A DNA stretch of 35,492 bases from a virus, in the IMG/VR virus record IMGVR_UViG_3300042307_001466, positions 1 through 35,492 of that record; one strand, written 5' to 3'. The notes beneath the pieces were generated by a model. That model had not been told where the DNA came from, did no database searches, and saw only the letters and a program-made list of their open reading frames with translations. A program made the position numbers and the translations under genes. Of the stretch, positions 5,364 through 17,829 are shown piece after piece (positions within the stretch are counted from its first letter, which is position 1; each line of letters starts with the position of its first letter).

Positions 5364-5730
5364 TGCGTCCCCCGATTTTGACCACGATATCCACCTCGCC
5401 CGCGTGCTCCACCTCGACCTTGTCCCCGTATTTCTTCGGGGCGATCTTGCTGGCCGCCCACTTGAGCGCATCCATGCGGAGCCTGCCAAGCTGAGCGTCT
5501 TTCGCGGTGCGCGCCTCCTCGACGATCATCTCCGCAAATGCGTCGGCTTGCTTCGCGCGCGCGTGCGCATACTGGGCGCGGAATTCTTCGTGCTGGTCCA
5601 ACCAACGAAGCACTGCATGTTTTCCAGGCATGCCCTTTTCTTGGCAGATCGCAATCAGTGTCTCGCCATTGGCTATTCGCTCGCAAATGGTGCGGGCGAT
5701 TGCCAAGGAGTAACTTGAGGGTCGCGCCAT
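5344..5730 (-). CDS. Terminase small subunit
   Basis: 128 aa. It recognises the packaging site and loads the large subunit. The N-terminus (SSYSLAIARTICERIANGETLIAIC, residues about 5-29) is the usual helix-turn-helix opening of this family, followed by a GMPGKHAVLRWLDQHEEF recognition-helix region (33-50). A charged helical middle (YAHARAKQADAFAEMIVEEA) would form the oligomerisation core, and the C-terminus has KVEVEHAGEVDIVVKIGG, a beta-strand tail typical of the family. It is the first gene of the leftward packaging/head block and is preceded by the heptamer array at 5.8 kb, so that DNA is a candidate for both its promoter region and its binding site. Confidence 0.88.
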   Translation of the reverse strand: MARPSSYSLAIARTICERIANGETLIAICQEKGMPGKHAVLRWLDQHEEFRAQYAHARAKQADAFAEMIVEEARTAKDAQLGRLRMDALKWAASKIAPKKYGDKVEVEHAGEVDIVVKIGGRSGPDNG

Positions 5731-5793: not shown

Positions 5794-5902
5794 GGTCCAA
5801 TATGTCCTAGTCCAATAATTACCCCCTAAAGGGGTAATATTGGACTTATTGGACCCAAGAAGTCCAATTAGTCCAAATTGGACTTATTGGACTTATTGGA
5901 CT
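5794..5902. repeat. Heptamer array, copy 1 (iteron- or operator-like)
   Basis: TTGGACT units start at 5840, 5849 (ending C), 5878, 5887 and 5896; AGTCCAA units, the reverse complement, at 5809, 5861 and 5870, with a GGTCCAA at 5794. Like-oriented neighbours are exactly 9 bp apart. The block also has an inverted repeat centred on CCCCTAAAGGGG (5822-5834), and 5861-5902 folds back on itself almost perfectly. It lies between the leftward terminase operon and the rightward gene at 5982. A near-copy of 5809-5902 is at 17130-17225. Candidate origin iterons, operator cluster or packaging-recognition DNA. Confidence 0.85.
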
Positions 5903-5932
5903 AGGTGCGTTTTTTGGCCTGCCTGAAATTTA

Positions 5933-5953
5933 TTTGCAAATTTTGTTTGCAAA
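5933..5953. promoter_or_regulatory. Paired TTTGCAAA palindromes upstream of the 5982 gene
   Basis: Two identical 8-bp palindromes, TTTGCAAA at 5933-5940 and 5946-5953, spaced 13 bp centre to centre in an AT-rich stretch. They could be operator half-sites. A possible promoter overlaps them: TTGCAA (5947-5952), 17 bp, AATAGT (5970-5975). That would place the transcript start at or next to the ATG at 5982. The promoter call is weak; the paired palindromes are directly visible. Confidence 0.4.
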
Positions 5954-5981
5954 CGAAACGAGCCCGTGCAATAGTTCTCCC

Positions 5982-6245
5982 ATGAGCAACACCAAGCACA
6001 CCTACACAAACAACACGGGCAATTGGGCAATCGTCGGCAACCGCCGCGAGCTCATCAGCACACACGCCACAGCGGGCGAGGCCGAGCTTGCCCTGGCGGA
6101 CATTGAGATCGAGGAAAGCGAATGGGGCACGCTAGATATTCTCGCGCCGGGCCGTAGCATCAGCGGCAATTTTACCAGCGGGGAGCCGCTCCCTGACTGG
6201 AGCGTTAACGGGCGCGACTGTTTGACGGATCTAGTGGGCCGCTAA
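5982..6245 (+). CDS. Hypothetical protein, 87 aa
   Basis: First of three plus-strand genes facing the replication operon. The product starts MSNTKHTYTNNTGNWAIVGN, is acidic in the middle (ADIEIEESEWGTLDIL), and has alternating short strands suggesting a small beta-rich fold; no cysteines, no membrane segment. I do not recognise the family. The ATG at 5982 is preferred to an upstream ATG at 5934 because the extra residues lie in the TTTGCAAA regulatory stretch and look non-coding. No Shine-Dalgarno is visible, in keeping with a leaderless or near-leaderless message. It ends in TAA, with one base before the next ATG. Confidence 0.65.
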   Translation: MSNTKHTYTNNTGNWAIVGNRRELISTHATAGEAELALADIEIEESEWGTLDILAPGRSISGNFTSGEPLPDWSVNGRDCLTDLVGR

Positions 6246-6246
6246 A

Positions 6247-6714
6247 ATGATCCACCTAACACTCAACACAAACCACTCCACCCGGCAACGGGCGAGCGAC
6301 GTCAGCCCCGAGGCTATTGCCGCCTGCCGTCCGCTCGTTGAATCCGGCGGCGGGCCGATTCCTGGCGTTGCCCCGTGGCGCGTGCGCATCACACTCGCCG
6401 ACGGCGGGGCTGTCTGGAGCATCCAGCGGGGCACACAGCCCGACGCAGTGCTGTGCGGACTCGCATGGACCTCTACGGGAGCCGCTGAGGTGTGGACCGC
6501 CCTAGAGCGGGTCCACCACCAGACAAGTGACGCCCTCGCCCGTGCCGGGGCGCTCGCGGAATCCGTGGCGCAGTCCCCGGAAATGCCGGGAGAACTGCCC
6601 TGGCTGGGCGTGGTCATACTGCCCGGGCTGGCGACCTCGGCACAGTCTGACGTCTCCTGGCTGGGGGATTTTGAACGGTGCCTAGCGCAAACCATTCTCG
6701 ACCTTAAAAAATGA
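6247..6714 (+). CDS. Hypothetical protein, 155 aa
   Basis: Starts one base after the previous stop (TAAAATG). The core, PWRVRITLADGGAVWSIQRG followed by LAWTSTGAAEVWTALERVH, reads as a beta-hairpin and an amphipathic helix. The C-terminal third (MPGELPWLGVVILPGLATS) is mildly hydrophobic but too polar for a confident membrane span. I have a sense that similar proteins occur in other phages but cannot name a family. It is co-directional with the 5982 gene and overlaps the RHH-like gene at 6711 (ATGA), so the three form one small transcript, possibly regulatory. Confidence 0.7.
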   Translation: MIHLTLNTNHSTRQRASDVSPEAIAACRPLVESGGGPIPGVAPWRVRITLADGGAVWSIQRGTQPDAVLCGLAWTSTGAAEVWTALERVHHQTSDALARAGALAESVAQSPEMPGELPWLGVVILPGLATSAQSDVSWLGDFERCLAQTILDLKK

Positions 6715-6878
6715 AAAACACACACAAAACAGGCCGCAAACCTCTCCCCGCCGACAAAAAGCGAGTCCGGCTCAACACCATCGTTTCACCTGAGACGCTC
6801 GCGAAAATCCGCGAGCTTTCCGAGGCGGGAAATCTCTCCCTCGGTCAATTGGTCGATCGCTGGGCGGCAAGATACTAA
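6711..6878 (+). CDS. Small RHH/CopG-like protein, 55 aa
   Basis: Small gene. ATG at 6711 overlaps the preceding stop as ATGA; TAA at 6876-6878. The product starts with a basic arm (MKNTHKTGRKPLPADKKRVR), then LNTIVSPETLAKIREL, an RHH-type strand and first helix, a short GNLSLGQ turn and a second helix, LVDRWAARY. This is the size and pattern of ribbon-helix-helix DNA-binding proteins, which act as dimers on operator palindromes. It is the last gene of its transcript and its end overlaps by 4 nt the end of the oppositely directed ATPase gene. Possible target: the nearby TTTGCAAA pair or heptamer array (inference). Confidence 0.7.
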   Translation: MKNTHKTGRKPLPADKKRVRLNTIVSPETLAKIRELSEAGNLSLGQLVDRWAARY

Positions 6879-8176
6879 GTGCGTTTTCTGGCCCTCCACT
6901 CGCCCGGCTCAGCCTTCGATTCCTCGATCAGCTGCAGATCCTTGAGCCGCTCCCATTTAGTCCCGAATGTGGATTTTCCCCAGCCCGCAATAATCGCCCT
7001 CTTTAAAATCTCCGCATGAGTTAGCTGGTCGTCCCCCAAAAGCTTGAGGAGCTTCTCCGGCGACCACACCTCAACCCGCCCCTTGCGCGCAGGCTCAGGC
7101 TCCGGCACCTCGTCCGCCTCTGCGGGTCGCCAGCAAATAGCCCCCGGCTCCTTGGCGTGTGCGATCGACCGGTGATAAATCCGCTCCCCCTCTTCGCCCA
7201 CCCAACCCGCCCGGGCGCCGCGTTTGCCCAGGACCAGCTGGAAAACCTCATGCGAGCCCAGCCCGCGCACGGCCACAACGGCCCGGGCCCAGTTGGCCCA
7301 TTCCGCGCTGCCGCTGCCGAGGTATGCCAGGTCATTGCCAGCCCATGTGGCCTTTTCCTGCCCGCTGGGCGGCTTGTTGGTGTGGTGCACGATCACCGTG
7401 GCGCAATGGTGTTTGTGAAGGATGGGGTTGAGCCCGTTCCGCAGGAACCCGCCCACGACCTCCTGGGATTTAACGTCCCCCCCGATGTAGGCAAGCGCCG
7501 GGTCCAACCAAAGAAGATCCATCGTCTGCGAGGCGGCAATCGGCTCCACGACCTGGGAAAGAAACGCATCCCCGCTCAGGGTGTCGCAAGTGTGAACGCT
7601 CACGTTCGCTAGCGCCTTGGCCTGCTCCTCCGCAGACAGCCCGAGCCCACGGATCACGCCGTCGCGCATCTCTGCGAGGTCGCCGTCGTCGTTCTCCGCT
7701 TGGATGAGAACGGACCGGAGGGGCCGCGCCGGGCGCAGGCCGAAACATTCCCGGCCAAGGGCCCAGAGGATCATGCACTGCATGGAGAGCGACGATTTAC
7801 CGATGCCCGAGGGCCCCACCAAGAGCATCCCCCCGCCTCGGCAAAGAAACCTGTCCTTGATCAGCTCGTCGGAGTCATCCTTGGGGCGTTGCAAGCTGGC
7901 CAATGACCGAGTGAGCACCGGGGCGGCCGGTGTCGGCTTCTGCGTCTTCTTGGCCTTGGCGACGATGTCCCCAGGGCTGCCCTCGGCGATCCAGCCGCAG
8001 TATCCGCACCGACACGCCCCTTCGACCACATCGAGCGGCTCCGGCTCCGGGCAGGACGGGCAAACAAACGTCAGCGCGCCGTTGCCAATGCTGGCCGACG
8101 CATAGAGATCCGCAGCGCGCCATGCGTGGTAGAGCTGCTCTTCAAAGGTGGTTGGGGTGGTGGTGGTGGTGGACAT
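6875..8176 (-). CDS. RepA/DnaB-like replicative ATPase with N-terminal zinc ribbon
   Basis: 433 aa. A zinc ribbon is visible at the N-terminus (CPSC at 39-42, CRCGYC at 55-60), followed by a Lys/Pro linker and a RecA-fold ATPase: Walker A GPSGIGKSS (121-129), a Walker B-like LLWLDP (Asp225) and VIVHHTNKPP (261-270), the pattern of AAA_25/RepA-type hexameric helicases. The C-terminus (HAEILKRAIIAGWGKSTFGTKWERL) looks like a winged helix. A zinc ribbon on a hexameric helicase recalls primase-helicases, with the primase probably supplied by the adjacent gene. Start at 8176: an upstream extension in this frame shadows the primase-like gene. It ends the early operon. No Shine-Dalgarno. Confidence 0.82.
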   Translation of the reverse strand: MSTTTTTPTTFEEQLYHAWRAADLYASASIGNGALTFVCPSCPEPEPLDVVEGACRCGYCGWIAEGSPGDIVAKAKKTQKPTPAAPVLTRSLASLQRPKDDSDELIKDRFLCRGGGMLLVGPSGIGKSSLSMQCMILWALGRECFGLRPARPLRSVLIQAENDDGDLAEMRDGVIRGLGLSAEEQAKALANVSVHTCDTLSGDAFLSQVVEPIAASQTMDLLWLDPALAYIGGDVKSQEVVGGFLRNGLNPILHKHHCATVIVHHTNKPPSGQEKATWAGNDLAYLGSGSAEWANWARAVVAVRGLGSHEVFQLVLGKRGARAGWVGEEGERIYHRSIAHAKEPGAICWRPAEADEVPEPEPARKGRVEVWSPEKLLKLLGDDQLTHAEILKRAIIAGWGKSTFGTKWERLKDLQLIEESKAEPGEWRARKRT

Positions 8177-9153
8177 TGGAAAAAGGGGTCGAAAAAGAAA
8201 ACTTCTTGGCGGATTTCCCCGGGGGTCTCCCATCCGGGGGGTAAATGAGCTTCCGGGGCGGTCGGCGCGGACCGCACCCCGCCGGGGAGCCGGACCAACT
8301 GGCAGCGGGTCCAAGTGGCCGGGTCCGCGCCCAGCCTCACAGCCTCGGTCATGAGCTCCCGGGCCTGCTCCTCGCTCTTGCAAGGGCCATACCAGCCATG
8401 GAGGGATTTCCCCCCCGAATGCACGGCCAAACGCAACTGGGGCCAGCCCAGCGCCTCGGCAACGGCCTTGAGATGCCAATGGAGCGCCGCCTGTTCATCG
8501 AGGCTGCCGGAATCAAACTCGACCACCAGCCAGCGCCGGGGCCCGGTGTTATCGAGCGAGCGGTGAGTGAGTCGCCCATCGAGTCCGCGCCCGCTTGTGC
8601 CGGTCATTGGACTAGGGACCACCAGACAGCACCCGTCGGCCTCTCCCCAGCGCGCCCGGCTCCGGGTCCGAGCCGTGCCGGGATGCCCCGCGGCGATGCA
8701 AAGCCATTCCGCATCGGGCAACAAAGCATTGAGCCACTGCATCGCGCTCTGTTGCGGAGGCTCCACCGGGCTGCGATGAAACAGATCCACCAACCCGCCC
8801 ACGCCGTCGCGTTTGGATGCCGCCACCATGGCCGCCCTGTGCCCGGGCTCCGCTTTTGGCCAGCGCTCCCCGCTGGGGGCCCGCCGGGGAGCCTTCTCTT
8901 GCAAGTCCGGCGCATCCTGGGCAACCGGCGCCTGCCACGCGATCTCCCGTGAATTAGCAACCGCGTCCCGGATCTCCCGTGGCGTCACCCTGCGGGCCGC
9001 TCCGGCGGTTGCGGCAGTCAGGGCCGCTTCGATGACCGGCCCGGGCATATGGGCATGGAGCTGACGCGCAGTCGCGAACAGCCATGCGTGAATCCCGGCG
9101 CCCGCCGTCGGCGGGGATGCGAGTTTGTCCACCAGCCATTGCGGCAGGCTCAT
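8071..9153 (-). CDS. Primase-like protein (archaeo-eukaryotic primase superfamily, putative)
   Basis: 360 aa. Three spaced motifs suggest an AEP-type primase core: WLVVEFDSG (208-216, acidic motif), SGGKSLHGWY (246-255, the S-x-H-like motif) and RCQLVRLPGG (283-292), then QEVFFFDP (316-323), where this type of domain normally ends. The N-terminal 200 residues are helical and Pro/Arg-rich without a recognised fold. The last about 35 residues (poly-Pro, then Ser/Thr-rich) overlap the start of the ATPase gene by 106 nt and are probably dispensable. With the ATPase it would form a two-gene primase-helicase. Start ATG at 9153, overlapping the previous stop (ATGA). The family call is from motifs only. 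Confidence 0.65.
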   Translation of the reverse strand: MSLPQWLVDKLASPPTAGAGIHAWLFATARQLHAHMPGPVIEAALTAATAGAARRVTPREIRDAVANSREIAWQAPVAQDAPDLQEKAPRRAPSGERWPKAEPGHRAAMVAASKRDGVGGLVDLFHRSPVEPPQQSAMQWLNALLPDAEWLCIAAGHPGTARTRSRARWGEADGCCLVVPSPMTGTSGRGLDGRLTHRSLDNTGPRRWLVVEFDSGSLDEQAALHWHLKAVAEALGWPQLRLAVHSGGKSLHGWYGPCKSEEQARELMTEAVRLGADPATWTRCQLVRLPGGVRSAPTAPEAHLPPGWETPGEIRQEVFFFDPFFQCPPPPPPQPPLKSSSTTHGALRISMRRPALATAR

Positions 9154-9446
9154 GACGCCACCCCCGCGAGGATGTCCTCGATATACACCCCGGCTTGTTC
9201 GCGGTAACCGCGCCGGATCACCGGACCGAGCACGGGAAGAAACCCCTCGAACGCATCCGCGCCCGCCTGCGAGCCATACACGAACACCATGCGACTGCTC
9301 CCCTCCGCGCGCTCCCACGCAATCGCCAGGAGCGCCCCGCGCAGGTTGATCTCAATCCCGCCCCGCGCGCTGTTGGCAGGCACTTGGCCCAGAATCCAAT
9401 TCACCGCCGCTTTCACGCCGGGCGTGTCCGCTGCGTGCTGGCTCAT
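9150..9446 (-). CDS. Hypothetical protein in replication operon, 98 aa
   Basis: Lies between helicase and primase-like genes, overlapping both by ATGA junctions, so it is surely co-translated. The product (MSQHAADTPGVKAAVNWILG...) has a helical start, a beta-rich middle (GGIEINLRGALLAIAW, then RMVFVYGSQAGADAFEGFLPVLG) and a helical end (YREQAGVYIEDILAGVAS). No cysteine cluster and no nucleotide-binding motif. Position suggests an accessory replication factor such as a loader or helicase partner, but nothing in the sequence proves it. Confidence 0.75.
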   Translation of the reverse strand: MSQHAADTPGVKAAVNWILGQVPANSARGGIEINLRGALLAIAWERAEGSSRMVFVYGSQAGADAFEGFLPVLGPVIRRGYREQAGVYIEDILAGVAS

Positions 9447-10969
9447 GACCGGCCCCCGATCCTCTGGCCGATGACGTAACCCGCCTGCTCCCGAGTCATG
9501 AGTTCCGCATTCGGGTTACCCAGTCGGCGCAACAGCATGACCTGCTTCGGTGTCGCAAGCCCCATCTCCGCCCGGTGGGCAAGCCGGTCAATCAGTTTGG
9601 CCGCAAAGCCCCGAGTCATCCGCTCCGTCCAGATCCCCGCGCGCGAAAGCACGGCCAGCTGATTCTCGGTCGGCGGCTCCTCCTCCCAGGGCATTGTCGG
9701 TTCGTATTCCTCAAGGTCGCTGTCGTGGATGCCCACCGCCCACGCGAGCGGATCGACAAGACCCTTGGGCGCTTTCCGGTTCTTGGCAGCCTCCTCCAAC
9801 TGGGCGGCGAGGGCCTGCTCCACATCCACCTTCGCGCGCGCCTCGGCCTCGAGGAGCTCCGCGCCTGCGTCGAGGTGCGCTTGGAGCGCCTTCTTGTGGG
9901 TCTCGTTGGGGGCGGAAATGTCCGCCGGCTGACAGAGGGACAGATCCCCGCTCAACCACAGCGGGTCCAGCAACAGGCAAAACTCTTTGCCCGGCGCCGT
10001 CCGCGTGCCCCGGCCCACGATCTGACAATACAACGCCCGGCTCTTGGTGGGTCGTAGGCAAAGGATGCAGTCAATGTCGGGCTGGTCGTAGCCTTCCGTG
10101 AGCAGCATGGCGTTGCAGAGCGCCGTGCCCTGCCCAGCCGCGCGGAACCAGTCCAGCCGGTCCACCCGGTCCTCGCTGGCCCCGTCCACGTGCCGGGCGT
10201 CAATCCCCTCCTCCGCCAGCGCCTCCGCGAATTTCTCGCTGACATCGCACCTTGGGAGAAACACCAGGGTTTTCCGGTCCCAGATCTCCGCAGCGGCCGC
10301 CCGGGCGACTTCACGCAACCGAGGCTCCAGCAGACTGCTGGCAACGTCTGCCGATAAATCCGAGCCGCTGCGCAGCTTGATTGAGCGGGCGTCAATTTCG
10401 ACAGGGAGCCGAAGGGCCCTCAGATGGCAGAGGTGCCCGGCGCCGATGAGTTCCAGCAAACCGATCTCAAACGCGACGTTTTGGTAAAACGCCCCGAGCG
10501 ATTTGCGGTCGGCCCGGTCGGGGGTGGCAGTCACCCCCAGCACGCGCGCAGTTTCAAACCGCCCGAGCACCTCCTGCCATTCCTCCGAAAGACTGTGATG
10601 AGCCTCGTCGCAGATGATGAGATCAAACGCATCCGGATCGTACTTGTGCAGCCGTCGCCGGACACTCTGCACAGACCCCACCACCACGCCGTGCCCAGGC
10701 ATGGCTGTAGATGCGCCCTGTTCGACCGAGGCAAAGATCCCCGTGGCGGCGTGCAGCTTCCCGGCGGCTTGTTTTACGAGCTCCTCACGGTGTGCCAAAA
10801 TCAGCGTGCGACCTTTTTCAGCGGCGGCGATGTGGGAGAAGATCACGGTCTTGCCTCCCCCGGTGGCTGCAATGCCAAGCTGGCGCTGCCACTGGCTCCA
10901 ACCGGCCTCCACGGCGTCCACGGCCCGCTGCTGGTAGGGTCGGAGTGGCATTGAAAGCAAGACGCTCAT
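9443..10969 (-). CDS. SF2 DEAH-type DNA helicase
   Basis: 508 aa. Helicase motifs in order: Q-like RPYQQRAVDAV (10-20), Walker A ATGGGKT (35-41), ILAHREEL motif Ia (57-64), Walker B DEAH (121-124), VTATPDR motif III (146-152), a TEGYDQPDID motif V (291-300) and QIVGRGTRT motif VI (316-324). This is the RadD/type III restriction-like SF2 branch common in phage replication modules. The C-terminal 100 residues (PTENQLAVLSRAGIW, then LATPKQVMLLRRLG) look like the small tandem TPKQ-type domain that often ends these phage helicases. Start at 10969 (ATGA overlap with the upstream stop and a strong AAGGAGGG ribosome site) rather than an upstream extension. Confidence 0.9.
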   Translation of the reverse strand: MSVLLSMPLRPYQQRAVDAVEAGWSQWQRQLGIAATGGGKTVIFSHIAAAEKGRTLILAHREELVKQAAGKLHAATGIFASVEQGASTAMPGHGVVVGSVQSVRRRLHKYDPDAFDLIICDEAHHSLSEEWQEVLGRFETARVLGVTATPDRADRKSLGAFYQNVAFEIGLLELIGAGHLCHLRALRLPVEIDARSIKLRSGSDLSADVASSLLEPRLREVARAAAAEIWDRKTLVFLPRCDVSEKFAEALAEEGIDARHVDGASEDRVDRLDWFRAAGQGTALCNAMLLTEGYDQPDIDCILCLRPTKSRALYCQIVGRGTRTAPGKEFCLLLDPLWLSGDLSLCQPADISAPNETHKKALQAHLDAGAELLEAEARAKVDVEQALAAQLEEAAKNRKAPKGLVDPLAWAVGIHDSDLEEYEPTMPWEEEPPTENQLAVLSRAGIWTERMTRGFAAKLIDRLAHRAEMGLATPKQVMLLRRLGNPNAELMTREQAGYVIGQRIGGRS

Positions 10970-11250
10970 TGCGCGCCCTCCTTTTTGTGCCAAAGCCCGT
11001 ATTCGCCCTTCTGGAATCCGTCGGCGATCATCTTGGCGTCCACGTTGGCCCACATTTGCCGAATAGCGGGCGGCGTTGAGTCGTCCTCGGTGGCGGGCTT
11101 TTCTGCGACCTGTAGCTTTTCCCTCGCCTCATCGCGCTGGCGTTCCAGTTTGCGGGCGAAATCGCTGCATACAACTTCGTCTTTTTCATCCCACGGCTCT
11201 CCGGTCATCCATACTGCCGCATCCGTTTCCGGTGTAGGTCGGTCGCTCAT
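10966..11250 (-). CDS. Hypothetical early protein, 94 aa
   Basis: Start ATG at 11250 overlaps the upstream stop and has AAGGAGG upstream. The opening SDRPTPETDAAVWM and the segment CSDFARKLERQRDEAREKLQV match a recurrent phage protein layout (PxTD...ADFARxLERxxxEA), of unknown function, mostly coiled coil. The C-terminus (MIADGFQKGEYGLWHKKEGAQ) resembles the end of the 149-aa protein encoded at 11635-12084 (ADGGFKQGDDGVYRR), suggesting a shared short module. The gene ends in the AAGGAGGGCGCGCAATGA junction that begins the helicase. Confidence 0.75.
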   Translation of the reverse strand: MSDRPTPETDAAVWMTGEPWDEKDEVVCSDFARKLERQRDEAREKLQVAEKPATEDDSTPPAIRQMWANVDAKMIADGFQKGEYGLWHKKEGAQ

Positions 11251-11459
11251 TGCGCGCCTCCTTCCTCGCGCATCGCGCACTCGATCGCCGCAACCAGCAG
11301 GGCGGCCGCTTCAACCAGGGATTCCAGTCGTTTTTTGCGTGGATCGAACTGAGCCCAATACATCGCCGCGCGCTCAAACTGTTCACGGGTGCCGTCGTAT
11401 GCGTAGCGGTCATGGCGCTCGCGCGCCTGCCAGATTTGTTCGATTGCTTCGGATGTCAT
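11247..11459 (-). CDS. Hypothetical early protein, 70 aa
   Basis: The product (MTSEAIEQIWQARERHDRYAYDGTREQFERAAMYWAQFD...) is mostly helical. The C-terminal half, ESLVEAAALLVAAIECAMREEGGAQ, forms an amphipathic Ala/Leu-rich helix that could pack against a partner or a membrane surface. ATGA overlaps join it to the genes on both sides. The last residues (EEGGAQ) are dictated by the next gene's embedded ribosome-binding site. Start at 11459; an upstream extension in the same frame is Arg-rich shadow of the neighbouring genes. No recognised family. Confidence 0.7.
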   Translation of the reverse strand: MTSEAIEQIWQARERHDRYAYDGTREQFERAAMYWAQFDPRKKRLESLVEAAALLVAAIECAMREEGGAQ

Positions 11460-11638
11460 TTGCGCTCGATTTCGTAGGTCATGGAGACGGTGATTTTGAC
11501 GGGCTCGCTGTCTTCGCGGCCCTCCTCCAGCTCCTCCGCGACGTAAGCGAGGATGGCGTCTTGCTGGGCTTCGAGGCTTTTCCTCAGTTGGCCTGTCATG
11601 TCGTGCGCGATTGCGCGGACTAGGGAATGTCGGATCAT
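11456..11638 (-). CDS. Hypothetical early protein, 60 aa (short paralogue of the 149-aa protein)
   Basis: The product (MIRHSLVRAIAHDMTGQLRK...) aligns by eye over its length with residues about 5-58 of the protein encoded immediately upstream (11635-12084): shared positions include L..(Q/A)(L/I)A..M...L, AQ..(E/A)IL, A, E.G...SE(E)PVK and V.(L/M). So it is a shortened tandem paralogue lacking the C-terminal module. It starts in an ATGATC overlap with the upstream stop and has GAGGAGG upstream. Function unknown; an antagonist or alternative subunit of the longer protein is possible but speculative. Confidence 0.7.
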   Translation of the reverse strand: MIRHSLVRAIAHDMTGQLRKSLEAQQDAILAYVAEELEEGREDSEPVKITVSMTYEIERK

Positions 11639-12084
11639 CGCGCCGCCTCCTCTTCCTCCCGCCTATAAACCCCGTCGTCGCCCTGCTTGAATCCTCCGTC
11701 GGCAAGCGCGCCCTCGATCGCCCGGTGAACTTTGGCGAACGGCGCCGTCACGGGGGCGGAAAACTCACCGTCAGGGCCGGTCGTGCTGAGCGACACCGAC
11801 ACGCCCTCCAGAGGCAGCCTCCCCTGCTGGGGGTCCTCCAACGGATGCTTCTCCTTCACGCTCGTCCGGGTCGTGAAAGAAAACGCGGTCTCCACCGTGT
11901 TGGCGTCCAGGTTGAGCACCCCGCGCAGCGTGACCCCGAATTTGACGGGCTCCTCCGAGTCCGTGCCGGTCTCCGACGCCTTCGCGATCGCCCTGAGGAT
12001 TTCCTCCTCCTGCGCGCCGATGGCGTCGGCGAGGTCGTCCTGCATATGTTCCGCCAGTTGTTTCAGTAAATGGTTGTTTGACAT
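11635..12084 (-). CDS. Hypothetical early protein, 149 aa
   Basis: Starts at ATG 12084 (MSNNHLLKQLAEHMQDDLAD...) after a 115-nt gap; the upstream extension in frame is Arg-rich and unlikely. Two parts are visible. The N-terminal helical and beta part (AQEEEILRAIAKASETG, then SEEPVKFGVTLRGVLNLD) is duplicated in the next gene. The C-terminal module HRAIEGALADGGFKQGDDGVYRR resembles the end of the 94-aa protein (10966-11250). The mRNA leader is A/C-rich (CCCAAAACCAACTC before TTAAAATG) without Shine-Dalgarno. Ends in an acidic EEEEAAR tail caused by the embedded ribosome site of the next gene. No known family. Confidence 0.7.
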   Translation of the reverse strand: MSNNHLLKQLAEHMQDDLADAIGAQEEEILRAIAKASETGTDSEEPVKFGVTLRGVLNLDANTVETAFSFTTRTSVKEKHPLEDPQQGRLPLEGVSVSLSTTGPDGEFSAPVTAPFAKVHRAIEGALADGGFKQGDDGVYRREEEEAAR

Positions 12085-12199
12085 TTTAAGAGTTGGTTTT
12101 GGGAAAGGGTCCCTGCGTCCAAGCCGGTCGGCTCGGAAAGCGCGCTTCACAGCCTTTGGGAGGCACGCGCCCGGCGTTTTGCCCGCAGGGATAAAGGGG
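12085..12199 (-). other. 115-bp gap inside the early operon
   Basis: This gap separates the 27-aa membrane peptide gene from the 149-aa protein gene. I see no convincing open frame. Its downstream end forms the A/C-rich leader of the 149-aa gene. A short GGGTCCC palindrome (12107-12113) is the only symmetry noticed. A weak internal promoter here is possible but not supported by clear hexamers. Confidence 0.35.
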
Positions 12200-12283
12200 T
12201 TAGTCGGCGTGAAAGGCGAACAGGTAGGCCAAGGCCAAAAGAGCCGCCGGGATGGTGAGCAAGTCGATTGTTTCCGGGGTCAT
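12200..12283 (-). CDS. 27-aa single-span membrane peptide
   Basis: ATG at 12283 overlaps the preceding stop as ATGA, with GAGGAGGGCGCGG just upstream, an excellent ribosome site; TAA at 12200-12202. The product is MTPETIDLLTIPAALLALA followed by YLFAFHAD: a short acidic start and one hydrophobic helix of about 17 residues. The start, coupling and ribosome site are too good for chance, but the peptide is too short for homology. Phages encode many such single-span peptides that act on host membrane enzymes or lysis timing; which applies here cannot be told. Confidence 0.6.
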   Translation of the reverse strand: MTPETIDLLTIPAALLALAYLFAFHAD

Positions 12284-12471
12284 TCCGCGCCCTCCTCAGC
12301 CACCTGGTCCTTCTCCTCGCGTCGTTTCACGCCGTCGCGGACGCGCTTGATGAATGCCCGCTCGCCGGGTGTGCGCAGCCCTCGCCGGTCGATAAAATCC
12401 CCGAGGGAAGCCGAAAACGCCTTCATGTCCGCCTTGCTTGGAACGTCGCCGGATTTGCGTCGTTTGCTCAT
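12280..12471 (-). CDS. Hypothetical basic protein, 63 aa
   Basis: The product is highly charged: MSKRRKSGDVPSKADMKAFS at the start, then FIDRRGLRTPGERAFIKRVRDGVKRREEKDQ. Rich in Lys/Arg, with an amphipathic helix in the second half; it may bind nucleic acid or a replication protein. Start at 12471 overlaps the 79-aa gene's stop by the usual 4-nt junction. It ends VAEEGAE because the GAGGAGGGCGCGG ribosome site of the 27-aa gene is embedded in its last codons. No recognised family. Confidence 0.65.
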   Translation of the reverse strand: MSKRRKSGDVPSKADMKAFSASLGDFIDRRGLRTPGERAFIKRVRDGVKRREEKDQVAEEGAE

Positions 12472-12707
12472 GCCCGGAACCCCTCCAAAAGCTTGAGCAC
12501 CATCTCCAAAGAGCGCTGGTTGAGATACAACTGCGCGGAGTGGTTTGCTTGGAGGTCGCCCACGGTGGCCGCAAACTCCGAGTCCTGCTTTAGCAAGGGC
12601 CCCATGATCGCCTCGCGGAGCTCCTTGAGGGCGGAAACGGCCTCGGTTTTGCCGTTGATGTCATTGACCATAATCCGGTCGTTCAGCGTTTCGAGGATCT
12701 TGCTCAT
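12468..12707 (-). CDS. Hypothetical helical protein, 79 aa
   Basis: Nearly all-helical: MSKILETLNDRIMVNDINGK, then VSALKELREAIMGPLLKQDSEF, then LYLNQRSLEMVLKLLEGFRA. Heptad-like Leu/Ile spacing suggests a small coiled-coil dimer. No cysteine, no membrane span. The start at 12707 overlaps the stop of the 46-aa membrane protein (ATGAGC) and has AAGGGGGGCCT upstream. Function unknown; translation is clearly coupled with its neighbours. Confidence 0.7.
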   Translation of the reverse strand: MSKILETLNDRIMVNDINGKTEAVSALKELREAIMGPLLKQDSEFAATVGDLQANHSAQLYLNQRSLEMVLKLLEGFRA

Positions 12708-12844
12708 AGGCCCCCCTTCGCTTTGCGGATGATCGCCCAGAGCGCGGCGGCAAACGCGATGCTCAGCAGGCCCAGCGACCAGCGCCGGGAGGGACTCCTC
12801 TGGTTACTCAGCCAGAGCGGTGTCTGTAGTTTCAGAGATTTCAT
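12704..12844 (-). CDS. 46-aa single-span membrane protein
   Basis: Small gene. ATG at 12844 overlaps the RusA stop (ATGA); TGA at 12704 overlaps the next start. The product begins MKSLKLQTPLWLSNQRSPSR, a basic arm, followed by one hydrophobic span (WSLGLLSIAFAAALWAII) and a short basic tail (RKAKGGL). The positive charges on both sides leave topology uncertain. Function unknown; an inner-membrane peptide acting on a host target or anchoring the replication machinery are both possible. Confidence 0.65.
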   Translation of the reverse strand: MKSLKLQTPLWLSNQRSPSRRWSLGLLSIAFAAALWAIIRKAKGGL

Positions 12845-13215
12845 TCAGGGATAATGGTGATTTCGATGCGTGGGAATTTCTCGACTTCGGTAAAGGTGGG
12901 CCGCTCGGGCCAAAGGTCTTTGTCGTTTGCAACGATCCCGGCGTCTGCCAGGCCGTCGATGTAGGCTTTGAGGCTTGCCAGCAGGTTGTCCGGATCCGGC
13001 TGTCGGTTTCTCGGACCGAGAAAAACGGCGGGGTGCAACGTGGCTTTCCCCCACCGGGGGGGCGGGCACCCATCGAGCACCCGCACCGCCTCGATCCTTG
13101 CGGCTGCCCGGGCCGCTTTGACCATCCGGGCCTTGATTGCCCAGTGACTCCGGGCATTAGGCGACAACCGGCAATCCGGCAGGGGTAACTGGAACGTGAG
13201 CGCCTCAAAACTCAT
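12841..13215 (-). CDS. rusA: RusA-like Holliday junction resolvase
   Basis: 124 aa, the normal RusA size (about 120). It cuts four-way junctions formed during phage recombination, as a dimer. Visible signature: RQPDPDNLLASLKAYIDGLADAGIVANDKD (71-100), with Asp74 and Asp76, Asn77, Lys83, Asp87, and the ND and following Asp around 97-100 as the metal-binding and catalytic positions of the family. The N-terminus FQLPLPDCRLSPNARSHW matches the usual opening of strand plus SxNxxxHW. It overlaps the DUF669 gene by 11 nt, which fits a shared recombination/replication role. Confidence 0.9.
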   Translation of the reverse strand: MSFEALTFQLPLPDCRLSPNARSHWAIKARMVKAARAAARIEAVRVLDGCPPPRWGKATLHPAVFLGPRNRQPDPDNLLASLKAYIDGLADAGIVANDKDLWPERPTFTEVEKFPRIEITIIPE

Positions 13216-13585
13216 CGAACACGTAGGCCGCGATCTTGTTGTTCTTGTTCCCGTTGTGCTCCTCGACCTTCAGCACGGCCCGGAACTCCCAGCCGATCAT
13301 CTCCTCACAGTCCAAGGAGAAATCCAGACCCGGCCCAGGGTGTTTGGCGCAGGCGCTCAAAAACTGGTCGATTCTGAACAAGGTCTTTTCCGAAAAAACC
13401 AAGTATTCAAACATCGAAACTCCGAGCGTGCCGTCTTCATTCACGACCCGGCACTTGAGCTTAATCATGTCGTTGCCGCCCTTCGAGGTTTCCTCCACGG
13501 CGTCCATGACGTTGAGGGTGTATTCACCCGGCGGAACGTGGAATTGCAGCGCCTCCGGGGCCTTGGTTTTGTATGTGATAGCCAT
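13205..13585 (-). CDS. DUF669-type protein, probable single-strand DNA-binding protein
   Basis: 126 aa. The layout, YKTKAPEALQFHVPPGEYTLNVMDAVEETSKGGNDMIKLKCRVV (5-48), then SMFEYLVFSEKTLFRIDQFLSA (57-78), then GWEFRAVLKVEEHNGNKNNKIAAYV (98-122), matches the DUF669 family as I know it: an OB-like beta fold with an inserted helix, found in phage replication modules beside RusA and recombination ATPases and thought to bind single-stranded DNA. That role is inference from family and context. The mRNA leader is A/C-rich (CACAACACAAAAACAACC before GTTATG) with no Shine-Dalgarno. Confidence 0.8.
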   Translation of the reverse strand: MAITYKTKAPEALQFHVPPGEYTLNVMDAVEETSKGGNDMIKLKCRVVNEDGTLGVSMFEYLVFSEKTLFRIDQFLSACAKHPGPGLDFSLDCEEMIGWEFRAVLKVEEHNGNKNNKIAAYVFDEF

Positions 13586-13657
13586 AACGGTTGTTTTTGT
13601 GTTGTGCGCGCGTCTCTCCGCGCGGTCACGCCCGATTGCCCGGCGTTCGGCGGTTGA

Positions 13658-14635
13658 TTAGTTGCCCGACTTAGGCTTCCGAATGGTGATGTAGGCGGAC
13701 CCTGGGCTCTCCATCACCGCCTCTTCCGGGAACGGTTTCCCGGGCAGTTTGCGCCCCCAGATCTCCCGCAGCTTGGCTTCACTCATGGGCCCGTAGGCGG
13801 CCAGCACATCGGCCACCCCGAGCGCGGCCAGATTCAGCTCCACCACCCGCTCCGGAACCTTGCGGCTCCCCCGTTTGGGCGTGAGCGAAACCCCGGCGAC
13901 CTTCTCCCCGGCGATCAGACGGCTCTTGAGGATGCCCCGGGCTTCGTCCGCGAAGTCCTCGACGATCCCGGCCCGGGTCACAAACTCCCGCAGAAGCTCG
14001 CTTGGGAGCGATTCCAGAAGCGCCTTTTCTCCGATCTCCACCAGCCCCAGCGATTCCCGACGCGGGGCGCAGGTGAACCTATTGGAGCACCAGCCGCAGT
14101 ACTCGTTCAACGTGGGCGGCTCCCCGGAAACGCCCTTGGCAATCGCACCGCGCACGGCCGCCTCCGCCGATTCCCTGGTGAACCGAAGCGTCTCCACCTC
14201 CCGAAGATCGCAGTAGAGCAGATACACCGTCCATTCGTCCGAAAACGCACGGTCCATGTAGCCGATCGCGTAAGCGGCCTGTTGCTCCAGGTAGTTGCGT
14301 TTCTGGCCGCTCTTGAGGTCGGCGGACCACAGGAGCTCTTCGCAGAGCAGATCCCCCGTGCCGACCATCCCGAGCGCCTCGATCCGCAGCGAGTCCTCAT
14401 TCGCGTCCAGCGGTGAGCCGTTTGCAAGGGCTCTAGCCGTGGCCACAGCCCAAGCCACCGACTCAATTTCAATCGTGCATAAATCCTGCAAAGCCATCCA
14501 CCCGTTCTCGATGGCGCAACGGAATGCCACGTCCAGCCGGGTGCCACGTTCCGCAGCCGCACCCGCAGGAGCGCTCCGGAAAGACCCGCAAAGCGCCAAC
14601 TTGGGCAGGATGGACGGCCTCAGAAAATCACTCAT
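13658..14635 (-). CDS. Cas4/RecB-like PD-(D/E)XK exonuclease with four-cysteine cluster
   Basis: 325 aa. The nuclease core is visible: GTGDLL (Asp95), ADLKSG (Asp106-x-Lys108) and QQAAYAIGY (118-126, the QxxxY helix). Four cysteines are arranged as in iron-sulfur nucleases of the Cas4/AddB group: one early (Cys16, PKLALCGSF) and three after the core (Cys180, Cys183, Cys189 in EYCGWCSNRFTC). This matches the DUF2800-like phage branch. Probable 5'-end-processing exonuclease working with the Sak4-like ATPase and DUF669 protein in strand annealing or repair. The C-terminal 100 residues (VELNLAALGVADVLAAYGPMSEAKLREIWG) are extra helices. Start at 14635 in a GAGGAGGGTGCGGAATGA junction. Confidence 0.82.
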   Translation of the reverse strand: MSDFLRPSILPKLALCGSFRSAPAGAAAERGTRLDVAFRCAIENGWMALQDLCTIEIESVAWAVATARALANGSPLDANEDSLRIEALGMVGTGDLLCEELLWSADLKSGQKRNYLEQQAAYAIGYMDRAFSDEWTVYLLYCDLREVETLRFTRESAEAAVRGAIAKGVSGEPPTLNEYCGWCSNRFTCAPRRESLGLVEIGEKALLESLPSELLREFVTRAGIVEDFADEARGILKSRLIAGEKVAGVSLTPKRGSRKVPERVVELNLAALGVADVLAAYGPMSEAKLREIWGRKLPGKPFPEEAVMESPGSAYITIRKPKSGN

Positions 14636-14649
14636 TCCGCACCCTCCTC
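14629..14649 (-). repeat. Gene-junction repeat, copy 1
   Basis: 21 bp identical to 14910-14930. On the coding strand it holds GAGGAGGGTGCGGAATGA: ribosome site, stop and start in one cassette, joining the 94-aa gene to the nuclease gene. Related but diverged versions are at most other junctions of this operon. Confidence 0.85.
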
Positions 14650-14916
14650 TCTGGTTTCCTTTCCGCCGCCATATCTGACTTCTAAAGCGAGCTCAGAAAT
14701 AAAATCAGCAGCCTCATTCAGCTCTTGAACGTCCGCGCTTATTGAATTCGCCAACTTTTGGCAAAGCGGCCTTTCCACTCCCATTTCTCGCTTGTATCGG
14801 AAAAGGCATTCCTCGGCGTATTTTTGGCCGGCCCTAATTGACTTCTCGATCTCAAACAAGTCCTCGACGGTGAGCCATTCGGGCCACGGATTAGCCTTGG
14901 CTTTCTTGGCACTCAT
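14632..14916 (-). CDS. Hypothetical early protein, 94 aa (helical)
   Basis: The product (MSAKKAKANPWPEWLTVEDL...) has a WPEWLTVEDLFEIEKSIRAGQKYAEECLF region (11-40) and an acidic helical C-terminal half (SISADVQELNEAADFISELALEVR). Probably all-alpha. The DNA encoding it (about 14650-14870) is noticeably more AT-rich than its neighbours, which could mean a separate origin. It starts and ends in the same GAGGAGGGTGCGGAATGA junction sequence, so the gene is bounded by two identical 21-bp repeats. No recognised family. Confidence 0.7.
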   Translation of the reverse strand: MSAKKAKANPWPEWLTVEDLFEIEKSIRAGQKYAEECLFRYKREMGVERPLCQKLANSISADVQELNEAADFISELALEVRYGGGKETREEGAE

Positions 14917-14930
14917 TCCGCACCCTCCTC
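14910..14930 (-). repeat. Gene-junction repeat, copy 2
   Basis: 21 bp identical to 14629-14649, here joining the 53-aa membrane protein gene to the 94-aa gene. The two copies are in direct orientation 281 bp apart, exactly bracketing the 94-aa gene. Recombination between them would delete that gene cleanly while keeping ribosome site, stop and start intact. Confidence 0.85.
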
Positions 14931-15074
14931 GCGTTCAGACCGGCGCCCGTTGAGATACCCCTGCGCCGTGCCGATCCTTTCCCCGTCGGCGTAGCCGTGT
15001 TTGTAGGCCGCCACCGCCAACCAGAGGGACGCCATAACCAGCAGCGCCCATGAAATCATTCCGGCCGCAATCAC
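14913..15074 (-). CDS. 53-aa single-span membrane protein
   Basis: Small gene. GTG at 15074 overlaps the stop of the Sak4-like gene (GTGA) and has AGGAGG 7 nt upstream; TGA at 14913 overlaps the next start (ATGA). The product starts VIAAGMISWALLVMASLWL with the span continuing through AVAAY, followed by a soluble tail KHGYADGERIGTAQGYLNGRR and the junction-encoded EEGAE. A C-terminal G-x-x-x-G-x-A-G-like tail on a single span recalls small phage spanin- or superinfection-exclusion-type peptides, but that is only a resemblance. Function unknown. Confidence 0.65.
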   Translation of the reverse strand: MIAAGMISWALLVMASLWLAVAAYKHGYADGERIGTAQGYLNGRRSEREEGAE

Positions 15075-16114
15075 GCTGCCACCTCCTGAGGAGCGACAAC
15101 CTTTAGGAACCCAGCCGGGTTCTTGATGACTCGGGCAGCGTAAGACGGGGAGACATCCCGGAATGTTTGACCAGGCTCGATCTGCTTTTGCCGGATCAAG
15201 TAGGCGTTCACCGCCTCCTCATGCGGCGCGCAGACCCGCTCAAGCTCCGCATTGCCAGCCGGAGCAGTTTTCGGTGCGGGATTCTCCACACCGGGAATCT
15301 CGTCGTCTCCTGCGGACTCAATCACAGGCGCGGGCGCCGGTTCTGGAGTCGCTGCGGGCTGCCCCCAGGGCGCGCCCACGGAACGAAACGCCCGCTCAAT
15401 GGTGTCAATGTGCCACTTCTCGACCTCGTTGAGCCCATGCCGGTTCTTCGCGTCCCAAGCTGCCGCCCGGGTGCAGTGCATGAGCCGTTCCCTGCCGCCC
15501 ACACCTTGAAGTTTCCCGCTGTCTTTCTCGCGGATCTGAGTTTTCCAGTTCCCAAAGAGCAACGCATCCGCCCATTCCTTGATGAGCGGCGCGACGTGCT
15601 TGGTGAGCTTGAGCTCGTAGCGGTCATATGCGCCCTCCCCGTCGGGCGGTTCGAATTTGGTGACCTTGCTGTGAGCCAGGAGGACGACCGTGATCCCCGC
15701 AGCGACAACCGCGTCCAGTCGGCTGAGAAGGATCGTCACCCGCTCTTTAAGCAGCGTGTAGCCCTTCCCATAGCCGAAATCTTCCACCCCTTTGATTTTG
15801 GGGCTGGCCGCGTCGGCCACGATGGCATCCAACGCCATCGACTCCAGCCAGTCCACAGTGTCCACGATCAGCGTCCCGCATGGGCGGGCCTTTGCGACCT
15901 CTGAGAGCGCGGTTTCGACCGCCCGCAGGTCAGGCAGGTCCGCCCGTTCGATGCGATCCACATCGAGCTGCGACGTGCTGCCCTCGACGTCGAGAAACAG
16001 CGGGTTCGAAAATTGACTGGCGAGTGTGCTTTTCCCGAAACCCTCGGGGGCGTAGATGACGATTTTCTGAGCCCGGCCCTTTTTGCCGGAGCTGATTTTG
16101 CTGAGTATTGACAT
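15071..16114 (-). CDS. Sak4-like RecA-fold ATPase (single-strand annealing/recombination)
   Basis: 347 aa. RecA-fold core: Walker A APEGFGKST (22-30), LDVEGST (41-47), Walker B TLIVDTVDWL (81-90) and VVLLAHSK (143-150). This is the layout of phage Sak4/AAA_24 ATPases, which act with phage single-strand-binding proteins in annealing or homologous recombination. The C-terminal 90 residues are Pro/Ala-rich linker and a short helical tail. Start chosen at ATG 16114 (MSILSKISSGKKGRAQ); the upstream extension is non-coding and the leader is A/C-only (ACCAAAAACCACCACCACC before ATG) with no Shine-Dalgarno. First large gene of the operon; overlaps the 53-aa gene (GTGA). Confidence 0.85.
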   Translation of the reverse strand: MSILSKISSGKKGRAQKIVIYAPEGFGKSTLASQFSNPLFLDVEGSTSQLDVDRIERADLPDLRAVETALSEVAKARPCGTLIVDTVDWLESMALDAIVADAASPKIKGVEDFGYGKGYTLLKERVTILLSRLDAVVAAGITVVLLAHSKVTKFEPPDGEGAYDRYELKLTKHVAPLIKEWADALLFGNWKTQIREKDSGKLQGVGGRERLMHCTRAAAWDAKNRHGLNEVEKWHIDTIERAFRSVGAPWGQPAATPEPAPAPVIESAGDDEIPGVENPAPKTAPAGNAELERVCAPHEEAVNAYLIRQKQIEPGQTFRDVSPSYAARVIKNPAGFLKVVAPQEVAA

Positions 16115-16158
16115 GGTGGTGGTGGTTTTTGGTTGGTGGTTTTGCTGGCCCGAACGGG

Positions 16159-16338
16159 TCAGCGGAGAAACGAAGCGAGGAGATCCGAGCGGAACCTCCA
16201 CGAGTGCCCGATCTTCCGGGCGCCGGGGAGCTTCCCTGCCCGGGCGAGAACCCGGGTGTGATACTCGGAGAACCCGAGCACCGCAGCGGCCTCGGCGAGT
16301 GTGAGCATCTGGGTTAAAGCGAGAGCGGAGCGGCTCAC
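16159..16338 (-). CDS. AlpA/excisionase-type HTH protein, 59 aa
   Basis: Small gene. GTG at 16338 overlaps the RHH gene's stop (GTGA) with GAGGAGGCAGCGCA upstream; TGA at 16159-16161. The product carries the MerR-type short HTH seen in AlpA and recombination directionality factors: MLTLAEAAAVLGFSEYHTRV, then LARAGKLPGARKIGHSWRF and RSDLLASFLR. The order LTLxEAAxxLGxS...GxLPGxRKIGxxWRF is diagnostic. In temperate phages such proteins help the integrase excise the prophage or act as an early regulator. Second gene of the operon, adjacent to an RHH regulator, consistent with a switch that controls excision. Confidence 0.85.
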   Translation of the reverse strand: MSRSALALTQMLTLAEAAAVLGFSEYHTRVLARAGKLPGARKIGHSWRFRSDLLASFLR

Positions 16339-16532
16339 TGCGCTGCCTCCTCTCCGGCCCGTGGCGCCATCGTCGGGCGTGTCAGCGTGTTGGCCACCTG
16401 CGAGAGCCCGATGTTGACGCTCAGCCGGACAATGTCTTGGAGCGACAACCCGGCCCGGTCCGCAACCTGCCGGATCTCCGCGAGTTGCCCGACCCGGAAT
16501 CGGATGTTGTGTGTTCGGTATTGGTCATCCAT
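16335..16532 (-). CDS. RHH-type regulator, first gene of the early operon
   Basis: 65 aa from ATG 16532. Residues 7-41, HNIRFRVGQLAEIRQVADRA then GLSLQDIVRLSVNIGL, give the strand-helix-helix pattern of ribbon-helix-helix DNA-binding proteins (Arc/MetJ/CopG). It is divergent from a second RHH gene at 16645 and shares with it the helix-2 pattern (I/V)RL(A/S).(R/N).GL. An in-frame extension to 16592 would add 20 residues from the intergenic DNA; the shorter form has GAGG 3 nt upstream. A promoter-like TTGACC-N18-TATACG ends 6 nt before the ATG. Likely autoregulator of the lytic operon. Confidence 0.78.
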   Translation of the reverse strand: MDDQYRTHNIRFRVGQLAEIRQVADRAGLSLQDIVRLSVNIGLSQVANTLTRPTMAPRAGEEAAQ

Positions 16533-16644
16533 GCGCCTCGTATATTTCAATACTACAGCGCCGGTCAATTTAAATTCTACTTTTTCGGGCACATTTTGCG
16601 CCCGTTGGGGTTTTCTTCTGTGTCAACCAAGGTATCTTGATTGC
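16533..16644. promoter_or_regulatory. Divergent promoter/operator region between two RHH genes
   Basis: This 112-bp gap is AT-rich compared with its surroundings. Minus strand: TTGACC, 18 bp, TATACG, then 6 nt to the ATG at 16532. Plus strand: TATCTT (16633-16638), then 6 nt to the ATG at 16645, with no good -35. Symmetries that could be operators: AATTTAAATT (16566-16575), a perfect palindrome, and CGGGC-N9-GCCCG (16586-16604). The short distance from both candidate -10 boxes to the start codons suggests leaderless messages. Best candidate for the lysis-lysogeny control region. Confidence 0.55.
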
Positions 16645-16884
16645 ATGACAGCCCCTAAAAAACGCGACTACACCCAGAGTCGCCCCGGAGGTAAACCGCT
16701 GCCCATTCGGTTCCCCGAAGAGCTGATGGAGCGCGTCCAGTCTGTCGCCGAATCCCTCGGAATGTCCGTGGCGGATACCATCCGCCTCGCAACCCGCGTG
16801 GGTCTGGAAGACCTTAAGCGAGTCAACTACGACCTTGCCCAGCTTGTCGTGGACGCGGTCCACAAACGCCCGCCCGTATTGTGA
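16645..16884 (+). CDS. RHH-type regulator, divergent from the early operon
   Basis: 79 aa from ATG 16645. A basic flexible arm (MTAPKKRDYTQSRPGGK) precedes PLPIRFPEELMERVQSVAESL and GMSVADTIRLATRVGLEDL, a clear ribbon-helix-helix pattern; the C-terminal tail RVNYDLAQLVVDAVHKRPP is a further helix. In phage P22 the Arc and Mnt repressors have this fold, so a repressor role is reasonable; I see no CI-like HTH repressor elsewhere in the window. A same-frame extension to 16387 would run antisense through the other RHH gene and is rejected. Confidence 0.78.
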   Translation: MTAPKKRDYTQSRPGGKPLPIRFPEELMERVQSVAESLGMSVADTIRLATRVGLEDLKRVNYDLAQLVVDAVHKRPPVL

Positions 16885-17014
16885 GCTCCTCGGGCGGATC
16901 GGCTGACCAGACTACCAGCACGCGGCGCGCAAGCGCGGCGGGCTCCATACCGAAGCGGCGCGCCACGGCGGAAAATTCGGGGGGGAGGGGAATGCGAGCG
17001 GATTGGCGCGGCAT
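16823..17014 (-). CDS. Possible small protein convergent with the RHH gene (doubtful)
   Basis: An open frame of 63 aa from ATG 17014: MPRQSARIPLPPEFSAVARR, then FGMEPAALARRVLVVWSADPPEELTIRAG. The middle (FSAVARRFGMEPAALARRVL) could be a small HTH. Against it: no Shine-Dalgarno, a 62-nt overlap with the convergent RHH gene, and a low-complexity Arg/Gln-rich end. The stretch 16885-17129 contains nothing else convincing. A same-frame start at 17122 would give 99 aa. Confidence 0.3.
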   Translation of the reverse strand: MPRQSARIPLPPEFSAVARRFGMEPAALARRVLVVWSADPPEELTIRAGVCGPRPRQAGQGRS

Positions 17015-17129
17015 GTGGTCACGCGAACATAAAGCCAGCCGATGCGCGAACAAAAAACGACCGAACCGTGTGCGGCCCTGCTCGCTGCGCATCGTCGGGC
17101 TTGGCTCAGCCAGCAGGTCCAAAAAGGCC

Positions 17130-17225
17130 AGTCCAATAATTACCCCCTTATAGGGGTATTATTGGACTTCTTGGACCCAGAAAGTCCCATAAATCCCATA
17201 TTGGACTTATTGGACTTATTGGACT
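17130..17225. repeat. Heptamer array, copy 2 (iteron- or operator-like)
   Basis: Near-copy, in the same orientation, of 5809-5902 (96 versus 94 bp). TTGGACT units start at 17162, 17171 (ending C), 17201, 17210 and 17219; AGTCCAA at 17130; degenerate AGTCCCA at 17183 and AATCCCA at 17192. The 9-bp period is kept. The CCCC...GGGG inverted repeat is kept too, although its loop differs (CTTATA), which is some evidence of selection on the structure. Between the two copies lies the complete early gene block, about 11.2 kb. Confidence 0.85.
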
Positions 17226-17593: not shown

Positions 17594-17823
17594 TGGCAGC
17601 AAACTGGCAACAAAGCCGGTCTTCAGAGTAAAATGTTCGTTTCGTAAACAGCAGGTCACGGGTTCAAATCCCGTCACTGGCTCCAGTGAAATCACTCTGG
17701 AAACCCTGTGTTTAAGCCATTCTCCGGGCTTTTTGCATTCTTCAACCGGACAGGCTCAATGTTGCTGAATGTTGCTTTTTAGGGCGGTTTGGGGCCTATT
17801 TTGTGGCAGCAAAGTGGCAACAG
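17594..17823. other. Phage attachment site attP with integrase arm-type repeats
   Basis: The core is the tRNA-Thr 3' segment at 17641-17685. Arm-type candidates: TGGCAGCAA at 17594 and TGGCAACAA at 17605 on the left (11-bp spacing); TGGCAGCAA at 17804 and TGGCAACAG at 17815 on the right with the same 11-bp spacing; and inverted GTTGCT units at 17761 and 17771. The integrase gene begins at the right arm, the usual arrangement. Virion genes lie on both sides, so this is an unrecombined attP and not attL or attR. Confidence 0.8.
17641..17685 (+). other. 3' portion of tRNA-Thr(CGT) carried in attP
   Basis: The DNA reads as the 3' 45 nt of a tRNA: anticodon loop TTCGTAA (17641-17647, anticodon CGT), anticodon 3' stem ACAGC, variable loop AGGTC, T-stem ACGGG / CCCGT with loop TTCAAAT, acceptor 3' strand CACTGGC, discriminator T, and CCA at 17683-17685. 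The 5' half is absent: the bases upstream do not complete the anticodon stem properly. So it is not a working tRNA but the identity segment that rebuilds the host tRNA-Thr gene after integration. Confidence 0.85.
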
Positions 17824-17829
17824 ATCCCA

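Follow-up and report, generated by a model that had tools for sequence, protein, structure and literature searches.

Paired iteron-hairpin arrays around the replication genes of a temperate phage: candidate origins probably read by a RepA-like helicase

In the Staphylococcus aureus pathogenicity islands (SaPIs), the phage-inducible chromosomal islands (PICIs) and the staphylococcal cassette chromosome mec (SCCmec), the C-terminal domain of the helicase reads iterons that lie 3′ of its own gene (PMC7581432; PMC6092414). The Sulfolobus plasmid pRN1 requires a stem-loop, conserved in shape, downstream of its replication gene, the α protein of phage P4 binds repeats with a winged helix, and in the IncQ plasmid RSF1010 the iterons are read by RepC while RepB′ primes at hairpins (PMC4234260). 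In the RepA/origin modules of the Vibrio PICI-like elements (PLEs), initiators vary together with their iterons, with repeated exchanges of specificity (PMC8263062). Here we describe two arrays of 7-bp units, each with a C-rich/G-rich hairpin, in the IMG/VR record IMGVR_UViG_3300042307_001466 (35.5 kb, analysed over its full 35,492 nucleotides and referred to as the window), a temperate podovirus-like phage with a portal, an Sf6-like small terminase subunit (terS) and a tyrosine integrase. The arrays, A1 (5809..5902) and A2 (17130..17225), are likely to be copies of a replication origin, A1 probably being bound by the predicted winged helix of the phage's own RepA-like helicase and A2 serving as a second origin. 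The features computed in this analysis are the arrays themselves, their conserved position, the conservation of their shape while the units change, their adjacency to the helicase gene, a helix that tracks the unit, and minima of GC skew.

The layout recalls SaPI/PICI pri-rep-ori and SCCmec Cch2 in that the element lies directly 3′ of the gene of an initiator helicase in four near relatives (G001-G004) and in most homologues, although in the window A1 is displaced from the helicase stop codon by an insert, unlike the placement in PICIs and SaPIs. PICI origins carry two iteron sets around an AT-rich region, whereas the present arrays combine an AT-looped C/G hairpin with iterons of mixed orientation, the helicase core is of the RepA/RecA type and two copies of the element lie 11 kb apart; where the C-terminal domain of the PICI helicase reads the iterons, a predicted C-terminal helix here co-varies with the unit. 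The stem-loop downstream of the pRN1 replication gene, kept in shape and variable in sequence and accompanied by a winged-helix replication protein (PMC4234260), is similar, but pRN1 has no iterons and encodes a primase-polymerase (prim-pol)/superfamily 3 (SF3) helicase protein in place of an AAA_25/RecA-like core. RSF1010 oriV shares both the RepA helicase fold and the joint presence of iterons and hairpins (ssiA/ssiB), yet its iteron reader is the separate RepC, while here the predicted winged helix is on the helicase itself. PLEs differ in their RepA_N initiator and iterons of about 30 bp, against an AAA_25 helicase and 7-bp units here. P4 has two separated iteron sites, ori and crr, and here too there are two sites, whose units are the same in the window and different in G004. 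P4 needs both sites, crr lying beside the α gene, and no C/G hairpin of this kind is known at the P4 origin. The α protein, a Toprim primase/SF3 helicase, is also unlike the RepA-like helicase of this phage. By the features tested, the element works like the SaPI/PICI, SCCmec Cch2 and pRN1 origins yet is a member of none of these groups, and no description of it was found in the open-access literature searched.

Architecture of the arrays and its conservation in near relatives

Both arrays are read on the plus strand in the same orientation and have a common order: an inverted unit, a hairpin with a CCCC/GGGG stem and an AT-rich loop, direct units, inverted units and then three direct units. 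In A1 this is AGTCCAA, the hairpin, TTGGACT and TTGGACC, two copies of AGTCCAA and three of TTGGACT. The hairpin of A1 (5809..5846) uses the units as its arms, with a short bulge on the left side, a stem of the form CCCC(C)-TAAA-GGGG and its core at 5822-5834; that of A2 (17130..17168) has the core CCCCCTTATAGGGG at 17143-17156. The original prediction of two near-twin arrays flanking the replication block was confirmed, as was its strict 9-bp period within each run of units (5840/5849, 5861/5870 and 5878/5887/5896 in A1; 17162/17171 and 17201/17210/17219 in A2). A step shorter than one turn of DNA is geometrically correct but does not discriminate between models. Other parts of that description need amending: the layout is common to both arrays, but the two central inverted units of A2 have decayed to AGTCCCAT and ATCCCAT; the CCCC...GGGG inverted repeat, described as central, lies leftmost in each array; and the arms, said to stay while the loop changes, themselves differ a little (GGGGTAAT versus GGGGTATT). 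The window holds 17 copies of TTGGACT where 2.55 are expected, a number reached in none of 100 shuffles; seven fall within A1, five within A2 and five are scattered singles. The highest density of any 7-mer is eight copies per 100 bp, never exceeding four in 100 shuffles of the window, and A1 and A2 are the sole loci in it that form this repeat family, as had been proposed. Rfam gave no match for the array as an RNA element and a promoter scan around the arrays found no promoter-like site.

Near relatives were recovered through the Sak4-like gene (the four contigs G001-G004) and through the large terminase subunit terL (L049); with the integrase as query, G002 was the only relative returned. 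An exact-array search of viral contigs gave 19 matches, nearly all of them coding repeats or low-complexity sequence, L012 being the only true relative, and named phages and plasmids gave no blastn match to the arrays. The element adjoins terS (5344..5730, minus strand) in every relative covering that position (G001-G004 and L049), and relatives covering the far border of the block have one or more elements there too. The expectation that the arrays border the replication block in relatives held in part: wherever the sequence of a near relative covers these positions, an array is present at each border. In G001-G004 the A1 array begins a few to a few dozen bases from the helicase stop codon, while in the window a rightward insert of three genes (5982-6245, 6247-6714 and 6711-6878, together 5982..6878, plus strand), absent from G001-G004, splits the two. 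The last gene of this insert is short and ribbon-helix-helix (RHH)-like.

The units themselves change. TTGGACT is found in the window and in G001, TTGGCCT in G002 and at A2 of G004, TGTCCC in G003, L049 and at A1 of G004, and TGGCACT in one of three A2 elements of G002. All copies within one array change in concert, and in the outer stem seven of ten pairs carry compensatory changes on both sides. Across these relatives, what is conserved is shape and position, and no single unit word. Tandem elements with the units TGTCCC, TGGCACT and TTGGMC occupy the A2 position of G002 (29840-30223; L035 10830-11223), the first two lacking in G001. Two further phages are of note: in one with a 51% identical terL (L094 7634-7986), clusters of the repeats TTGGGCAACT and TTGCCCAA lie upstream of terL without a C/G hairpin, and in one with 68% terL identity (L071 9421-9480), a CCCCCTAAAGGGGG hairpin with GGGGGAGG-type arms lies upstream of terS; tblastn found no helicase homologue on the latter contig.

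The RepA-like helicase and its association with the hairpin

The partner of the arrays is probably the RepA-like helicase (Pfam AAA_25) encoded at 6875..8176 on the minus strand, 433 residues long when counted from the methionine aligned in relatives. Its AlphaFold2 model (433 residues; mean predicted local distance difference test score 85) comprises a zinc-ribbon-like N-terminus, the putative ribbon being our reading of the cysteines, a RecA/RepA core and a predicted C-terminal winged helix. The core resembles RSF1010 RepA (Foldseek target template-modelling scores of 0.76 for 1g8y and 0.71 for 1nlf). Residues 371-433 of the model form the winged helix (codons 6878..7066, minus strand) and residues 401-413 the predicted recognition helix (codons 6938..6976, minus strand), which tracks the A1 unit contrary to overall relatedness. 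The helicases of G001 and G003 are identical at 257 of 261 core positions but at only 7 of 16 in the recognition helix, and their A1 units differ; those of G003 and G004 match at 234 of 261 core positions and 12 of 16 in the helix, and share their A1 unit. From this co-variation among five distinct near-relative helicases, the phage's own helicase appears to read the units with its C-terminal winged helix.

More distant homologues (41-61% identity) occur in viral contigs and in 26 of 388 Verrucomicrobiota genomes, and often have a hairpin with a C-rich arm, an AT loop and a G-rich arm right 3′ of the gene, ringed by other repeats. When hairpins were ranked by GC-corrected folding energy alone, perfect-stem detection missing bulged stems, the strongest lay within 400 bp 3′ of the helicase stop codon in 34 of 52 viral and chromosomal loci against 4.5 expected, a count that is not fully independent, many of these loci sharing ancestry as sets of close relatives. 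In 25 of 41 loci, 7-mers from the hairpin arms reappear in the flanking DNA more often than in shuffled sequence (p<0.05). Conversely, the 14-mer hairpin core CCCCCTTTAGGGGG was scanned in viral contigs blind to genes, with a hairpin of opposite polarity, GGGGGTTTACCCCC, as control. Among the matches listed, a helicase stop codon lay 58-514 bp upstream of CCCCCTTTAGGGGG in 28 of 120 contigs and upstream of the control in 0 of 120; among the nearest upstream genes in the remaining listed contigs, Pfam identified a further 15 AAA_25 and 5 prim-pol genes for CCCCCTTTAGGGGG, and 3 and 3 for GGGGGTTTACCCCC. The hairpin pattern alone retrieved two AT-rich contigs (L045 and L046); of these, L045 was examined and has an AAA_25 gene whose 3′ end lies 190 bp upstream. 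The element is present 3′ of the AAA_25 gene of Eleftheria terrae, while no clear element follows that gene in the named distant phages inspected (Manatee Spring, Serratia, Wolbachia WO and Desulfofustis). After a gene related to P3 of APSE phage, annotated as DNA helicase/VapE, L267 6070-6250 has GTTGCGC iterons and a CCCCCCTAAAGGGGGG hairpin, so a further family of helicases may also use the design.

Probable origin function and rival explanations

In the window, G002 and G004 the cumulative GC skew has its minimum at A2. Five distant phages have a skew minimum, local or global, where the element lies (percentiles 81-100); the element is beside the helicase in four of them and at the terS position in the fifth, G401. 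Third-codon-position skew changes sign across A2, the genes on both sides being leftward except the integrase (17803..19008, plus strand). In the mechanism we infer, which covers binding, loading, priming and a division of labour between A1 and A2, the winged helix of the RepA-like helicase would bind the 7-bp units of A1 and thereby load the putative hexamer next to the hairpin; there the duplex would open and priming would start. A2, at the opposite end of the block, would be a second origin copy and the probable start of forks over evolutionary time. In the best reading, A1 is the origin cognate to the helicase, or the site where it is loaded, and A2 a second origin, probably fired, an arrangement that by analogy would fit the ori/crr pair of P4.

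Several observations weigh against this. The skew check suggested for origin activity gave a minimum at A2 but none at A1 in the window (percentiles 6-22), and with only about 0.4 kb between A2 and the probable phage attachment site (attP) core, skew alone cannot assign the minimum to one or the other. The A2 unit of G001 and G004, of the TTGGCCT type, mismatches their own A1 unit, and the three A2-side elements of G002 have different units. To these are added the small number of helicases behind the helix-unit link, the shared ancestry within the 52 loci, and the failure of the search to turn up a cultured phage with a close helicase homologue. A2-position arrays carrying the unit of other members (the G002 unit in G004 and G001, the G003 unit in G002) could also have a different role, capturing a competing phage's helicase so as to titrate or borrow it, within a set of mutually exclusive helicase-origin codes, which we regard as unlikely.

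Of the three guesses in the original prediction, the evidence favours origin iterons over operators and recombination anchors. If a phage regulator such as an RHH protein bound the units, it would control the leftward late operon from A1 and the early operon from A2. RHH proteins typically bind tandem short sites, RHH-like genes lie near A2, and both arrays are upstream of leftward operons, A1 78 bp from the terS start codon and A2 roughly 115 bp from the gene whose start is at 17014. These RHH genes are, however, of differing and mostly non-orthologous types with weak Pfam matches, and similar arrays are accompanied by different RHH sets. The arrays of one genome may carry different words (TGTCCC at A1 and TTGGCCT at A2 in G004; likewise differing in G002), which speaks against their being read by one and the same operator protein. 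It is the recognition helix of the helicase that tracks the A1 unit, A1 in G001-G004 adjoins the 3′ end of the helicase gene, and the architecture goes with that gene across unrelated phages, so that an operator function is improbable, though the helicase may regulate its own expression at the arrays. As for anchors that make the 11-kb block exchangeable, the near-identical direct repeats flanking it in the window would suit them, but relatives in which A1 and A2 have come to differ retain the synteny of the block, and none of the relatives examined has it swapped or deleted, leaving this possibility very doubtful.

An intrinsic terminator ending the helicase operon, its repeats arising from slippage and hairpin-templated repair, would account for a strong hairpin after the last early gene in the relatives, and quasi-palindrome repair could homogenise the units. 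Yet at least five T in the 8-base tail were found in only 3 of 36 elements, so these hairpins are not typical terminators; moreover, a scan gave no terminator match at A1, A2 is not at an operon end, the iterons recur beyond the hairpin and skew minima accompany the element. We consider this explanation highly improbable. Still more remote is the presence by chance of host-type or mobile repeats, such as repetitive extragenic palindromes or miniature inverted-repeat transposable elements. The several copies per genome in this clade, in tandem in G002, and the A1/A2 twins of the window do suggest intragenomic copying, but the hairpin pattern had 0 matches in 84,980 bacterial and archaeal species genomes, and distant phages have the core at one place only, beside the helicase. 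Nothing was found by a covariance-model search of 289 Verrucomicrobiota genomes, a result that by the tool's own warning carries no weight.

The replication and recombination block bracketed by the arrays contains, all leftward, the RepA-like helicase, a ResIII helicase, an exonuclease-like gene and a Sak4-like annealing ATPase (AAA_24; 15071..16114, minus strand), the first large gene on the A2 side. Between A2 and the integrase lies a tRNA 3′ fragment (17640..17685, plus strand; anticodon loop TTCGTAA, probably tRNA-Thr CGT), the probable attP core of an unintegrated genome; no complete tRNA was found. The ends of the record (1 and 35492) are those of an opened circular map, with about 3.8 kb missing between them relative to G004. 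The host probably belongs to the Verrucomicrobiota, because the closest terL in species genomes (75% identical) sits in a Verrucomicrobia metagenome-assembled genome.

Implications for phage replication

AAA_25 proteins were reported in 2022 as lacking a described function (PMC8965321). The same design, with other repeat sequences, right after this helicase gene in many unrelated phages makes it possible to test for an undescribed class of phage replication origin. If this is true, many phages and mobile elements would initiate replication through a self-addressed RepA-like helicase, and the origin would be recognisable by a C-TTTA-G hairpin 3′ of the gene, giving origin positions in the genomes of uncultured phages. 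It would also provide a natural series of matched helix-iteron pairs for the study of recognition codes, as well as a direct way to test why two origins bracketing the replication genes are kept in one clade.

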